Shown here: piece by piece, positions 34,594 to 38,176 of the stretch
How the letters are laid out: each line of letters starts with the position of its first letter
Numbering within the stretch: position 1 is the stretch's first letter
Assembly: GCA_023252155.1 (NCBI GenBank)
Contig: JAHEXJ010000012.1
Coordinates: forward strand, 1 to 39,251
Reading direction: 5' to 3'
From: Actinomycetes bacterium
GTDB lineage: Bacteria; Actinomycetota; Actinomycetes; Nanopelagicales; Nanopelagicaceae
Length of the DNA: 39,251 nucleotides
Translations under genes and position numbers: made by a program
Notes under the pieces: model-generated
The model's database searches: none
Told to the model about the DNA's origin: nothing
The model's input: the letters and a program-made list of their open reading frames with translations, nothing else

Positions 34594-35301
34594 ATGAAGC
34601 GCAGTAAGAAATACACCGCAGCAGCGGAAAAAGTTAAGAAGGATTACCTATACACACCACTTGAGGCCGTAACACTTGCTCGCGAAACCTCAACCACAAA
34701 ATACGATGCAACCGTTGAAGTTGCTCTATTGCTTGGTGTCGATCCTAAGAAAGCCGATCAAGCAATTCGAAGCACAGTTAACTTGCCACACGGAACAGGT
34801 AAGACTGTTCGCGTACTTGTGTTCGCAGGTGGAGCTCGCGCTGACGAAGCTCGCGCCGCTGGTGCCGACATTGTTGGTGCAGACGAATTGATCGATGAAG
34901 TTGCAAAGGGCCGTCTTGATTACGACGCCGTTGTTGCAACACCAGATTTGATGGGAAAGGTTGGTCGTCTTGGAAAGGTTCTCGGACCTCGTGGACTTAT
35001 GCCAAACCCAAAGACCGGCACCGTGACAACCGATGTTGCCAAGGCAGTTACTGATATCAAGGGCGGAAAGATTGAATTCCGCGTTGATAAGAACTCAAAC
35101 CTTCACTTCATCATTGGCAAGACTTCGTTCACCGCGCAACAGTTGGCAGAGAACTACGCCGCTGCACTCGATGAGGTAAACCGCGCGAAGCCATCTTCAT
35201 CAAAGGGCCGTTACATTCGTAAGGCAGTCATCTCAACAACGATGGGACCTGGCATCATGGTCGATCCCAACATCACACGTGAAGCGGTTGCTGCTGAATA
35301 A
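34594..35301 (+). CDS. rplA: 50S ribosomal protein L1
   Basis: A 235-residue L1-stalk protein that also represses its own operon in many bacteria. Typical L1 stretches are present: [89 protein letters not shown] and [20 protein letters not shown] precedes the ATG. A strong terminator follows 8 bp after the stop, so the ribosomal transcript ends here rather than continuing to rplJ. Confidence 0.98.
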
Positions 35302-35308
35302 TCTTTCT

Positions 35309-35392
35309 GAAATAACCCCCTTAATGGGTGGGCTTGAGACTGCTTCGCATTACGTCTCTGCACTCCATCCACTTAAGGGGGTTATTTCTTTT
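35309..35392 (+). terminator. rplA terminator with an internal second hairpin
   Basis: GAAATAACCCCCTTAA (35309-35324) pairs perfectly over 16 bp with TTAAGGGGGTTATTTC (35373-35388). The 48-nt loop is itself structured: TGGGTGG pairs with CCATCCA (one G-U) and GAGAC (35336-35340) with GTCTC (35354-35358). The stem is followed by TTTT. The inverted-repeat element starts at the very next base. Confidence 0.8.
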
Positions 35393-35488
35393 AGCGTTCG
35401 GCGTTTAGTGGACTTTTGAGTTGATTTAGGGCTCTTAGGGGTTGATTTACCGTATTTAGGTAGCGGCGCGCCTCACGTCGCGATGCTG
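35393..35488 (+). repeat. Left 96-bp terminal inverted repeat
   Basis: It matches the reverse complement of 37331-37426 at 93 of 96 positions. Internal structure: GTTGATTTA occurs twice (35420-35428 and 35441-35449), 21 bp apart, about two helical turns, and TTAGG-type words recur at roughly 10-bp steps. That pattern looks like paired protein-binding sites. The inner end is ATGCTG. Confidence 0.9.
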
Positions 35489-35604
35489 ACAAGGACGTGG
35501 CACTCAGTCGCTCGCGCACTCACATACCCAGTCTCGTCAGTCCGAGTGAGAAGGTCGATGATGGTCCAGTGAAGGGATTCCTGGCAGCCGGACATTTACA
35601 TAGT

Positions 35605-36165
35605 ATGAGAGAAACTGAGCAACAGGTACGCGACAAGAGCGCGGAGTTAGCGCGAGTAGTCGCGACGCATCGTCAAGCACTGTTGCGTTATGCGCTTCGT
35701 CGCCTCGACGACCACGGCGCTGCCGAAGACCTCGTAGCTGAGACCTTCGTAGTTCTCTGGCGTCGCTTCGATGAGCTCCCTCCGCGAGACCAAGAGCTGT
35801 TCTGGCTCTACGGCATCGCGGGTCGTGTTCTCTCCAACACTTTGCGTGGTCGTCAGCGCTTGCTGCGTTTGGAGATGCGCCTGGCCTTCGAGCGTGAGCA
35901 CGCCCAGGACGCGCCGCGGTACAGCGAAGAGGACATCAAGCAGTTGATGGAAGCCCTGGCCGAACTACGACCAGAAGAGCGAGAACTGCTCCAACTCACC
36001 TACTGGGAGGACCTGTCGTATCGCGAGATAGGGCTCGTCCTCGGTTGTAGTGAGAAGGCGGCTGGCATTCGCATCTCCCGAGCTCGCCAGCACTTGCGCC
36101 AATTACTCAATGAAACCAGCAGCACCGCCAGCATCACGCCCCTACCGAACCAGGAGACACTCTGA
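35605..36165 (+). CDS. ECF-type RNA polymerase sigma factor
   Basis: A sigma-70 family factor of the extracytoplasmic-function type. Region 2: QALLRYALRRLDDHGAAEDLVAETFVVLWRRFDELP then WLYGIAGRVLSNTLRGRQR; region 4: LAELRPEERELLQLTYWEDLSYREIGLVLGCSEKAAGIRISRARQHLRQLL with the helix-turn-helix. I place the start at ATG 35605 (186 residues), the usual ECF size. An open frame begins at GTG 35497, 9 bp from the repeat, and adds 36 unconserved residues; a GTG at 35569 is another option, and none has a good ribosome site. It is coupled to the next gene by a TGATG overlap. Confidence 0.88.
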   Translation: MRETEQQVRDKSAELARVVATHRQALLRYALRRLDDHGAAEDLVAETFVVLWRRFDELPPRDQELFWLYGIAGRVLSNTLRGRQRLLRLEMRLAFEREHAQDAPRYSEEDIKQLMEALAELRPEERELLQLTYWEDLSYREIGLVLGCSEKAAGIRISRARQHLRQLLNETSSTASITPLPNQETL

Positions 36166-37238
36166 TGAACGAAGACCTACTCTCCATATTGATGACAGAC
36201 ATCGACCCCGTTCGCGATCTCAGCGATAGCGCGCTCGACGAACTCGTGCCCTACGACCACTTGATGACACGGGTGCTGGCTGGCATCGAGCAGCCTGCGA
36301 CCGAAGCCGTTCATGCCCGCACCTCTATCTGGCACCGGACATCGCTACGAGTAAGCGCAGTAGCAGCAGCCGTCGTACTGGTTGCGTATGGAGTCGTTGG
36401 CTTCCTGGGTTCGTCACCCACCACGGTATCTGGGGGCTTCGCACTGGGAGCAGTTCATTCGTCCTGGGTTGAGTACAGCACCAGTGCATCGTCCGAAGCT
36501 ACCTTCGGCACTGCCACTCGGAGTATGGCGGCTGCGCTCGTTAGCAAGGGCCGGATCAGTGCAGTACTGAACCTCGACGGACTGACCATCGCCCCGCCTT
36601 CATCTTCTACCCAGCCACGGGTCTCGGCGACTCAGATGGCGAGCAGGCTTTGGGCAACTACTGCCCTCCAAGGACAGGCGAAGGTCGCCTTCGGTTTTGG
36701 CAACCTCACGCTAAACCTCTCGCAAAACGGAGCACCGAAACTCCACAGTGTGCCCGTCTGGGTGGCTATCGCAACGTCGAAGCCTTGTAGCGCTACGAGC
36801 GTGTGTAGTGCCTCGGCGATAGCTTCGCTACCTCTCACCGTTGTCGTTAGCGGGTTCGGCCTACCCAACAGTGAAGCAACGACTGGTGTCCCGATTGCAT
36901 TCACCTATAAGAACGGCGGAAAGAACTCTACGACCAAGCCACGACTACTTCCCGCTATCGAACAAGTCTCGGTTGTCTGGGTTGATGGTCGAGTCTTGAA
37001 CGGAAGCCTCCACATCACGGCCAGTTCGGTTCCCTGTGGTGCGCTCAACGGCTACAGCCTGACGACTAGCGCCAACGGGACAAGACTGACCGTTAAGGGA
37101 CTAATACCCGAATCCACTATTGGGGACTTCTGCACGGCGTCGATCGCAGTCGATAAGGTCATTCCGCTGCGTGGCGCCAGTGCTGGTGCGACGACGATCC
37201 TTCACGCACCAACAGGACCAATACAAGCGACGAACTAA
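36165..37238 (+). CDS. One-TM partner of the sigma factor, possible anti-sigma or sensor
   Basis: A 357-residue protein overlapping the sigma gene by one base (TGATG), with a GGAGA ribosome site. The cytoplasmic N-terminus (about 1-63; DPVRDLSDSALDELVPYDHLMTRVLAGIE) precedes one TM helix (about 64-85; VSAVAAAVVLVAYGVVGFLG). The remaining 270 residues, Ser/Thr/Gly rich with Cys in CSATSVCS, VPCGALN and GDFCTAS, would be extracytoplasmic. There is no ZAS-type HxxxCxxC zinc motif, so a classical zinc anti-sigma domain is absent. Gene pairing and topology are what suggest sigma control by an outside signal; the signal is unknown. Confidence 0.7.
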   Translation: MNEDLLSILMTDIDPVRDLSDSALDELVPYDHLMTRVLAGIEQPATEAVHARTSIWHRTSLRVSAVAAAVVLVAYGVVGFLGSSPTTVSGGFALGAVHSSWVEYSTSASSEATFGTATRSMAAALVSKGRISAVLNLDGLTIAPPSSSTQPRVSATQMASRLWATTALQGQAKVAFGFGNLTLNLSQNGAPKLHSVPVWVAIATSKPCSATSVCSASAIASLPLTVVVSGFGLPNSEATTGVPIAFTYKNGGKNSTTKPRLLPAIEQVSVVWVDGRVLNGSLHITASSVPCGALNGYSLTTSANGTRLTVKGLIPESTIGDFCTASIAVDKVIPLRGASAGATTILHAPTGPIQATN

Positions 37239-37336
37239 ACGCTGGCTTTGTTCTTCGAGCCCTTCGGTCGTCCACAACCCCCCTTCTTCTCCGGCTTGCC
37301 CCGCATCGCTGGGTTGGTCAGGGGCTGTGCCAGCAT
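37235..37336 (-). CDS. Possible small antisense ORF with AT-hook-like motif
   Basis: A 33-codon open frame on the minus strand starts at an ATG inside the right inverted repeat (37336) and ends in TAG overlapping the stop of the partner gene. A second in-frame ATG (37306) gives 23 residues. The basic tail is rich in Lys and Gly and contains GRPKGSKNK, an AT-hook-like (GRP core) DNA-binding motif. No ribosome site is visible. It might be a truncated end of a former element protein or a small regulator; the expression case is weak. Confidence 0.35.
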   Translation of the reverse strand: MLAQPLTNPAMRGKPEKKGGCGRPKGSKNKASV

Positions 37337-37426
37337 CGCGACGTGAGGCACGCCGCTACCCAAACACGGTAAATCAACCCCTAAGAGCCCTAAATCAACT
37401 CAAAAGTCCACTAAACGCCGAACGCT
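37331..37426 (-). repeat. Right 96-bp terminal inverted repeat
   Basis: Inverted copy of 35393-35488 with three substitutions. From 37239 to 37330 lies a short spacer between the partner gene and this repeat that carries only the possible small antisense ORF. Confidence 0.9.
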
Positions 37427-37446
37427 TCTCTTTTTAGGGCATGTAT

Positions 37447-37492
37447 TTGCCTTGGTACCTTTATTCCAGTATTCTAGGTTTTATTGGAATAA
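37447..37492 (+). promoter_or_regulatory. Promoter and ArsR-type operator of the sulfur operon
   Basis: TTGCCT (37447-37452), 17 nt, TATTCT (37470-37475) is a well-formed sigma-70 promoter. An inverted repeat TTATTCCA (37461-37468) / TGGAATAA (37485-37492), centre-spaced by 16 nt, brackets the -10 element and start point. This is the place where an autorepressing ArsR-family protein would bind. AAGGAG before the ATG is the ribosome site. Confidence 0.65.
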
Positions 37493-37501
37493 GGAGAAAC
37501 A

Positions 37502-38176
37502 ATGAGCAAACGTGAGGCCAAGACAGCCCTATATGAGCAGTTCGCGCGAGTTGGGAAGGGATTATCAAGTCCGAAGCGCTTGGAATTGCTAGACCTGCTC
37601 TCTCAAGGCGAGCGTTCGGTTGAATCGCTGGCAACCGAAGCTGGTCTTGGAGTGTCCTCTGCGTCTATGCATTTGCAAGCGCTCAAAGAGTCGGGTCTGG
37701 TTGCGACTCGCAGAACTGGAACCACAATTCGCTACCGGCTAAAAGGTGAAGATGTTGCTGCACTGTTTGTCATGCTTCGAAACGTCGCGACTTCTAATCT
37801 TGCCGAAGCTGAGCGAGCTACGGATATCTATTTGGGCCAACATGACACAGAGACCGGTGAAGTTGTTGCTCGCGAAAAGTTGCTCAAGTCTGTTCGTGCG
37901 GGTGAAGTGGTTGTGTTGGATGTCAGACCGAAACTTGAATTTGATGCCGGCCATGTTCCAGGTGCTTTATCAGTTCCTCTTTCTCAACTAAGTGAATTTA
38001 TTTCCACGATCAAGAAGGACCTTGACATTGTCGTGTACTGCCGGGGCGCCTACTGCGTTCTTGCATACGACGCTGTGAAAGTGTTTAGCAAAAAAGGACT
38101 TCGGGCTCGCCGGTTACAAGACGGAATGCTCGAGTGGCGACTTGCCGGATTACCAGTCGAAAGGGATGTTGCATGA
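37502..38176 (+). CDS. ArsR-family repressor fused to a rhodanese domain
   Basis: A 224-residue two-domain regulator. The N-terminal winged helix (about 1-90; LSSPKRLELLDLLSQGERSVESLATEAGLGVSSASMHLQALKESGLVATRR) is ArsR-like; it lacks the metal-binding CxC of ArsR. The C-terminal rhodanese (about 115-220; VVVLDVRPKLEFDAGHVPGALSVPL) has the active-site loop CRGAYC with the catalytic Cys. Such proteins respond to sulfane sulfur or persulfides by forming a persulfide on the Cys. Its stop overlaps the DsrE-like start (ATGA), and its promoter carries a matching inverted repeat, so it most likely represses its own operon. Confidence 0.88.
   Translation: MSKREAKTALYEQFARVGKGLSSPKRLELLDLLSQGERSVESLATEAGLGVSSASMHLQALKESGLVATRRTGTTIRYRLKGEDVAALFVMLRNVATSNLAEAERATDIYLGQHDTETGEVVAREKLLKSVRAGEVVVLDVRPKLEFDAGHVPGALSVPLSQLSEFISTIKKDLDIVVYCRGAYCVLAYDAVKVFSKKGLRARRLQDGMLEWRLAGLPVERDVA

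Follow-up and report, generated by a model that had tools for sequence, protein, structure and literature searches.

A probable trans-mobilised cassette carrying an ECF sigma factor gene pair in a Nanopelagicaceae genome

How a pair of regulatory genes came to be framed by long inverted repeats is the question raised by the locus downstream of rplA in contig JAHEXJ010000012.1 (assembly GCA_023252155.1, Nanopelagicaceae), whose 39,251 nucleotides constitute the window analysed here. A first, sequence-only reading had reported repeats identical at 93 of 96 positions, placed the unit at 35385-37434 and suggested, among other possibilities, a non-autonomous element mobilised in trans. The explanation favored here, with a probability of roughly 0.8, is import across classes: the unit would be a passenger cassette lacking a transposase, mobilised in trans and derived from a transposon family of g177, a genus belonging to a different class of the phylum.

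Anatomy and insertion site of the element

The two arms are inverted with respect to each other and could be extended to 99 nt, of which 95 are identical (Table 1). The four mismatches are found at positions 62, 66, 77 and 97 counted from the outer end, identity being complete over the outer 61 nt, and chance does not account for a match so long. The 16-nt core of the repeat, with up to two mismatches allowed, was found at two places in the window, the ends of the element, against an expected number of 0.08. The 8 nt located just outside each arm match at 7 of 8 positions and represent the target duplication; the earlier bounds correspond to the arms plus these 8 nt on each side. Both the near-identity of the repeats and the limits of the unit were thus borne out.

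The sole cargo consists, as had been recognized, of an ECF sigma factor gene and a gene encoding a protein with one transmembrane segment. The sigma factor displays the expected Pfam domains, and the partner contains a single strong hydrophobic stretch (residues 63-81). The latter has no match in Pfam and a weak one to an anti-sigma profile of NCBIfam (E 9e-4, 19.3 bits for a cut-off of 100); its AlphaFold model, built on a two-row alignment, has a mean pLDDT of 33.2. The claim that transposase, integrase and resolvase are missing from the interior also held: none was recognized by Pfam in the two cargo proteins, and the family transposase and exonuclease described below gave no tblastn match at E<=0.01 to 35385-37434. 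An Rfam scan of 35250-37600 returned no match. The element is composed of passenger genes between two inverted repeats, with no internal transposase. The GC content of the interior reaches 58.8%, against 51.5% in the remaining window, and third-position GC amounts to 0.67 and 0.62 in the sigma and partner genes, compared with 0.45, 0.46 and 0.45 in the host genes rplA, ArsR and dsrE; the value of 0.61 observed in rplK is at odds with this contrast.

Table 1. Coordinates of the features discussed (window numbering, except where a locus handle precedes the positions)
Feature	Position	Strand	Remark
Intrinsic terminator hairpin of rplA	35309..35388 (arms 35309-35324 / 35373-35388)	+	Unbroken by the insertion
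Left copy of the 8-bp target duplication (TTTCTTTT)	35385..35392	+	7/8 against right copy
Left terminal inverted repeat, 99 nt	35393..35491	+	Outer ~40 nt common to the g177 family
Putative autoregulated ECF promoter (TGAAGGGA-N11-CGGACA)	35570..35594	+	Conserved before sigma in 14 loci, the closest of 21
ECF sigma factor gene, 186 aa	35605..36165	+	Sigma70_r2 and r4_2 (Pfam)
One-TM partner gene, 357 aa, putative anti-sigma factor	36165..37238	+	Start codon (ATG) shares one base with the sigma stop
Right terminal inverted repeat, 99 nt	37328..37426	-	95/99 against left
Right copy of the 8-bp target duplication (TCTCTTTT)	37427..37434	+	
Transposase-exonuclease overlap loci	L153:6481-9788; L220:6399-9676; L164:23-3339; L221:1097-4332; L222:2324-5577		

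The left end of the element is situated inside the T-rich tract 3' of the rplA terminator hairpin. To its right lies an ArsR-rhodanese gene that is present in 4 of the 21 genomes of the genus, own assembly included (E<=1e-40). In two congeners, G003 and G076, this gene directly follows rplA, and alignment of the flanks reveals an empty site; both flanks of the element are syntenic with these two genomes. A third genome, G094, harbors about 3.5 kb of different genes in the rplA-ArsR gap (L109:784-4252); judged by eye, they encode a metal ATPase, a regulator of ArsR type and an exporter of cations. The site has therefore received insertions more than once.

The repeat family and its putative transposase

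The own assembly, a draft of metagenome type (114 contigs, 83.8% complete, 4.24% contamination), contains the repeat solely as the two arms, with neither another copy nor a solo repeat. In 200 other genomes of the host family, a single weak match was obtained (G133, E 0.006), located outside the conserved outer end and counted as chance. The sequence-only reading had held that the unit would be a fixed feature if the repeat proved confined to this place and no empty sites or further copies existed. The confinement was indeed observed within the host family, bar the weak G133 match, while the other part did not stand: two congeners display empty sites, and sequences related to the repeat are present in a different class. 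In family f54, which belongs to that class, the outer repeat was matched in 28 of 172 genomes at E<=0.05 (E-values computed per genome, the weakest rows being partly noise), and 27 of these genomes belong to g177; rows matching repeat positions 70-100 alone are probably noise. In g177, 23 of 99 genomes contain the exact core TTCGGCGTTTRGTGGA and none its reversed control pattern. The inner part of the arms (~57 nt) yielded no convincing relative. An inner half common to the family was considered and discarded: of the weak matches to positions 70-100, the two that were read, in L080 and L082, resemble ordinary coding sequence by eye.

A total of 21 elements could be delimited with both ends placed, 20 in g177 and the one in the window. 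Locus L092 (left end missed by the scan), L156 (nested ends), unpartnered ends and the element of G731, divided between two contigs, are left out of this number. With 8 nt compared per side, the target duplication reaches at least 7/8 in 16 of the 21 elements and is perfect in 10, whereas none of 420 left-right cross-pairings used as a control attains 7/8. The elements below this level are L094 (6), L160 (5), L087 (2), L088 (2) and L220 (1), the L088 value being 2/8 with the start 2 nt further out and 5/8 with the start set inward. An intact family transposase is absent from 19 of the 21 elements according to tblastn. Fragments of its gene persist in L087, L091 and L155, so that loss by deletion does occur in the family.

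The cargo of these elements is varied, the Pfam identities given here covering a subset of the element ORFs that was scanned. RhuM-Fic was identified in L090 and L095, with a similar ORF in L115, and AbiEi/AbiEii in L091. AAA-type ATPases are carried by L093 and L155, with a close ORF in L094, and an HTH protein with a DUF6036 nucleotidyltransferase by L112, with similar ORFs in L117. HTH proteins are found in L096, L160 and, weakly, L089, an AadA_C protein in L097 and an NHL-repeat protein in L111. Three short elements (L088, L114 and L116) contain no named gene. Outside the 21, the cargo of L092 is an ATPase with DUF234.

Full-size elements include L153 (G692; 9.16 kb, duplication 8/8) and L220 (G716; 9.6 kb, duplication 1/8). 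In each of the two, the gene for a protein of ~530 aa, hereafter P0001, is accompanied by genes for an RNase_T exonuclease, a DNA methylase and a type III restriction helicase. Searches of Pfam, NCBIfam, PHROGs and the PDB gave no significant match to P0001; DUF659 matches to two of its relatives were too weak for use. Residues D248, D318 and E440 are invariant across seven aligned relatives, as are D313 and others. We read the former three as a DDE triad with a presumed catalytic role, and the N-terminal cysteine pairs as zinc ribbons of this putative transposase. The frame starts 75-77 nt inside the family end in three of the four closest copies; the fourth, in G731, begins at a contig edge, and the flanks located on its contigs C6 and C35 have GTCACCAT in common (8/8). 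No good family end was detected near the more distant relatives L221-L225.

In each of the six loci tested, the transposase gene is followed by one for an exonuclease. The product is assigned to RNase_T by Pfam in L153, L220, L164, L221 and L222; the exonuclease of L219 is a stop-free 52% match, and the frame in G443 runs for 531 codons without a stop. The overlap between the two genes is 1 or 4 nt in the five loci where both ORFs were mapped (Table 1), distant relatives included.

Relatives of P0001 are present in 19 of 99 g177 genomes, some as mere fragments, and its alignment was matched in 6 of 396 genomes sampled phylum-wide. Among the 23 genomes of g177 that carry the exact core, a close (at least 56% identical) and intact transposase was found in just G692 and G731. 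No P0001 relative was found in the own assembly, itself 83.8% complete, and the window copy may for this reason now be stranded. A plasmid or phage carrier was also considered and rejected, since the repeat and P0001 are unmatched in plasmids and phages and the element interior is unmatched in plasmids. Viral contigs yielded no match for P0001 or A1 and no exact 25-mer of the repeat; 27 of them contain the 16-nt core with no good family end around it (at best 22 of 33 positions), which was taken as chance.

The sigma factor pair and its putative promoter

Relatives of the sigma factor were retrieved from 23 of 172 f54 genomes at E<=1e-30, every one of them in g177. In a tree comprising 20 of the 26 f54 sigma places, the window and two outgroups, the g177 rows are the nearest to the window by path, many forks, including those around the window, being open. 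In the 396 genomes sampled phylum-wide, the partner was matched in its own genome, strongly in G443 (g177), weakly in G432 (g177) and weakly in G286, from another family. Genome contigs contained it at two loci, both in g177 genomes. The best relative of the pair is that of G714 (sigma 91% and partner 77% identical), where homology (locus L016) extends from the genes to near both repeats. The genomes of L004 and L005 have the same sigma gene coordinates as G714 and G739 (g177). Plasmid matches to the sigma factor are limited to four records, each below 60% identity, and viral contigs gave none.

No inverted repeats were detected around the sigma pair in the 22 g177 loci examined (with 233 nt available upstream on the G714 contig). 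A degenerate right family end was found 25 nt past the partner match of G443 (L015:6276-6299), in one of 10 loci tested, with a score of 28 against 22 for the best of 60 shuffles; it is perhaps the relic of an earlier cassette. As its closest relatives are found in g177, mostly with no flanking repeats, the pair is most simply regarded, on sequence comparison, as a chromosomal module of g177 that has turned into cargo.

A number of observations concern the relatives themselves. In L005:1352-2956 and L043, an 85% sigma relative is followed by a partner that is alike over its first 61 residues alone; the outer part of ~470 residues is unrelated, the sensor domain having seemingly been swapped. 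The L005 sigma locus is bracketed by a 14-nt direct repeat (L005:627 and L005:3383), perhaps delimiting another mobile unit, and the copy at L005:627 adjoins a partial tRNA-like sequence. Upstream of the G714 pair, at the contig edge, L016:61-115 contains repeated TTTTCGAGCG motifs, similar by eye to an end of IS21 type.

The repeats had been proposed to act as the promoters of the sigma factor itself. This proposal was not upheld: a putative promoter lies between the left repeat and the sigma gene, and its motif is present in neither repeat. Of 21 loci, the 14 closest share the form GAAGGGA-N-GGAC immediately before their sigma gene, and the seven more distant ones lack it. A strict pattern, TGAAGGGA-N(10-14)-CGGACA, was scanned in 29 chosen genomes and is present in 13 of them: 11 of the 13 with a sigma relative (G443 and G731 have the gene and lack the pattern) and 2 of the 16 without one (G713 and G412). 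In the sigma-bearing genomes, all strict matches but G685:C34 are located just before a sigma copy. The own assembly (G000) has a single strict match, before its own sigma gene, and six congeners have none. Given this conserved promoter inside the element and outside the repeats, the switch seems to carry its own putative promoter.

Explanations of the locus and known systems

The preferred reading rests on what is observed here: family ends, a near-perfect 8-bp duplication, an empty site in congeners and closest relatives of the sigma pair in g177. The earlier suggestion of mobilisation in trans gains support from the duplication, the empty sites of two congeners and the presence of these ends on numerous other elements, of which a few have a transposase-like gene. 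That the ends are shared, that targets are duplicated and that the site is empty in congeners leads us to infer transposition in trans by an enzyme of P0001 type. Full-size elements, in which the exonuclease gene stands beside, would produce a DDE-like transposase of this type, which would act in trans on DNA bounded by two family ends. The sigma/partner cassette would have moved in this manner into the T-rich tract past the terminator of rplA, with 8 bp duplicated and the hairpin spared. The partner would then hold the sigma factor at the membrane as a closed switch, until a signal releases it to transcribe its own operon through the conserved putative promoter within the element.

A decayed autonomous element would offer another route to the same structure, a full-size transposon with the sigma pair as cargo having been stripped of transposase and exonuclease by an internal deletion once it had arrived. 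The fragments in L087, L091 and L155 demonstrate that deletion takes place in the family, but no such fragment was found in the window element, and the G714 homology, which reaches near both repeats, leaves scant room for a lost module; we consider this course unlikely. The driver in trans might also have been an ISL3-type transposase instead of P0001. PF01610 matches are present in 42 of 99 g177 genomes, TTCGG and a comparable spacing are common to both kinds of end by eye, and a weak profile alignment links P0001 to ISL3 (P 0.0084, probability 4.7%). However, the ISL3 ends of g177 loci are of the GGCTCTTCGG... or GGCTCTCCTG... types and revealed no family end, whereas the family end stands before genes of P0001 type, which renders an ISL3 driver very unlikely. 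An assembly or binning artefact joining g177 DNA to the contig would be compatible with the foreign cargo and with a draft metagenome-type assembly of the stated completeness and contamination. Both flanks are nevertheless syntenic with G003 and G076, and the element stops exactly at family ends bracketed by the 7/8 duplication, making such an origin extremely improbable.

Import of a trans-mobilised cassette being thus preferred, a broader proposition stands at even odds: that the family, previously undescribed, serves as a shared shuttle, in which a two-gene machine (a zinc-ribbon DDE transposase and an RNase_T/DEDDh exonuclease, their genes overlapping or adjoining) and its ends would package exchangeable cargo into trans-moving cassettes, themselves devoid of a transposase, that crossed a class boundary. 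The cargo range in this broader proposition comprises restriction, abortive-infection, toxin-antitoxin-type, ATPase and sigma/anti-sigma modules. Many otherwise unlinked accessory genes of g177 would be joined as cargo of one shuttle, powered by a putative transposase family that the searched libraries lack and that is regularly accompanied by an exonuclease. If these readings are true, regulatory switches, beyond resistance and defence genes, spread as minimal cassettes among distant bacteria, and a sigma switch with its own promoter could function at once in a foreign host.

In its anatomy the element fits a known kind, the mobile insertion cassette, and its ends, putative transposase and cargo match no known family in the searches performed. 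A partial literature search, covering titles and the beginnings of abstracts, retrieved no account of this transposon family or of a comparable mobile ECF pair. The mobile insertion cassettes MIC231 (with IS231A) and the qnrD mic also have inverted repeats around passengers, a target duplication and no transposase, and mobilisation in trans is reported for MIC231A1 (PMC3913671). With regard to sharing the ends of an autonomous element, as such cassettes do, the outer ~40 nt match the P0001 elements and the inner part does not. Compared with those cassettes, the present element differs by its ends, putative transposase and sigma/partner cargo, its movement in trans is deduced, and its family also carries defence-type and toxin-antitoxin-type cargo. 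The TIMEs of the Tn3 family resemble it by long inverted repeats, varied cargo, non-autonomy and a proposed movement in trans; they have 38-bp Tn3-type repeats and 5-6-bp duplications (PMC4133298), and the 8 bp observed here set the two apart.

Tn7-like transposons likewise carry many defence systems as cargo, but most units delimited here are small and devoid of the family transposase, and the searches performed revealed no Tn7-type protein. ISL3 elements generate 8-bp target duplications, a feature shared with the present family together with TTCGG ends as judged by eye; in contrast to them, P0001 has neither PF01610 nor any other significant Pfam match, and the ISL3 ends found in g177 are different. 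An ORF resembling an IS1595-type transposase by eye was also noticed at L156:3331-4305, amid several nested family ends.
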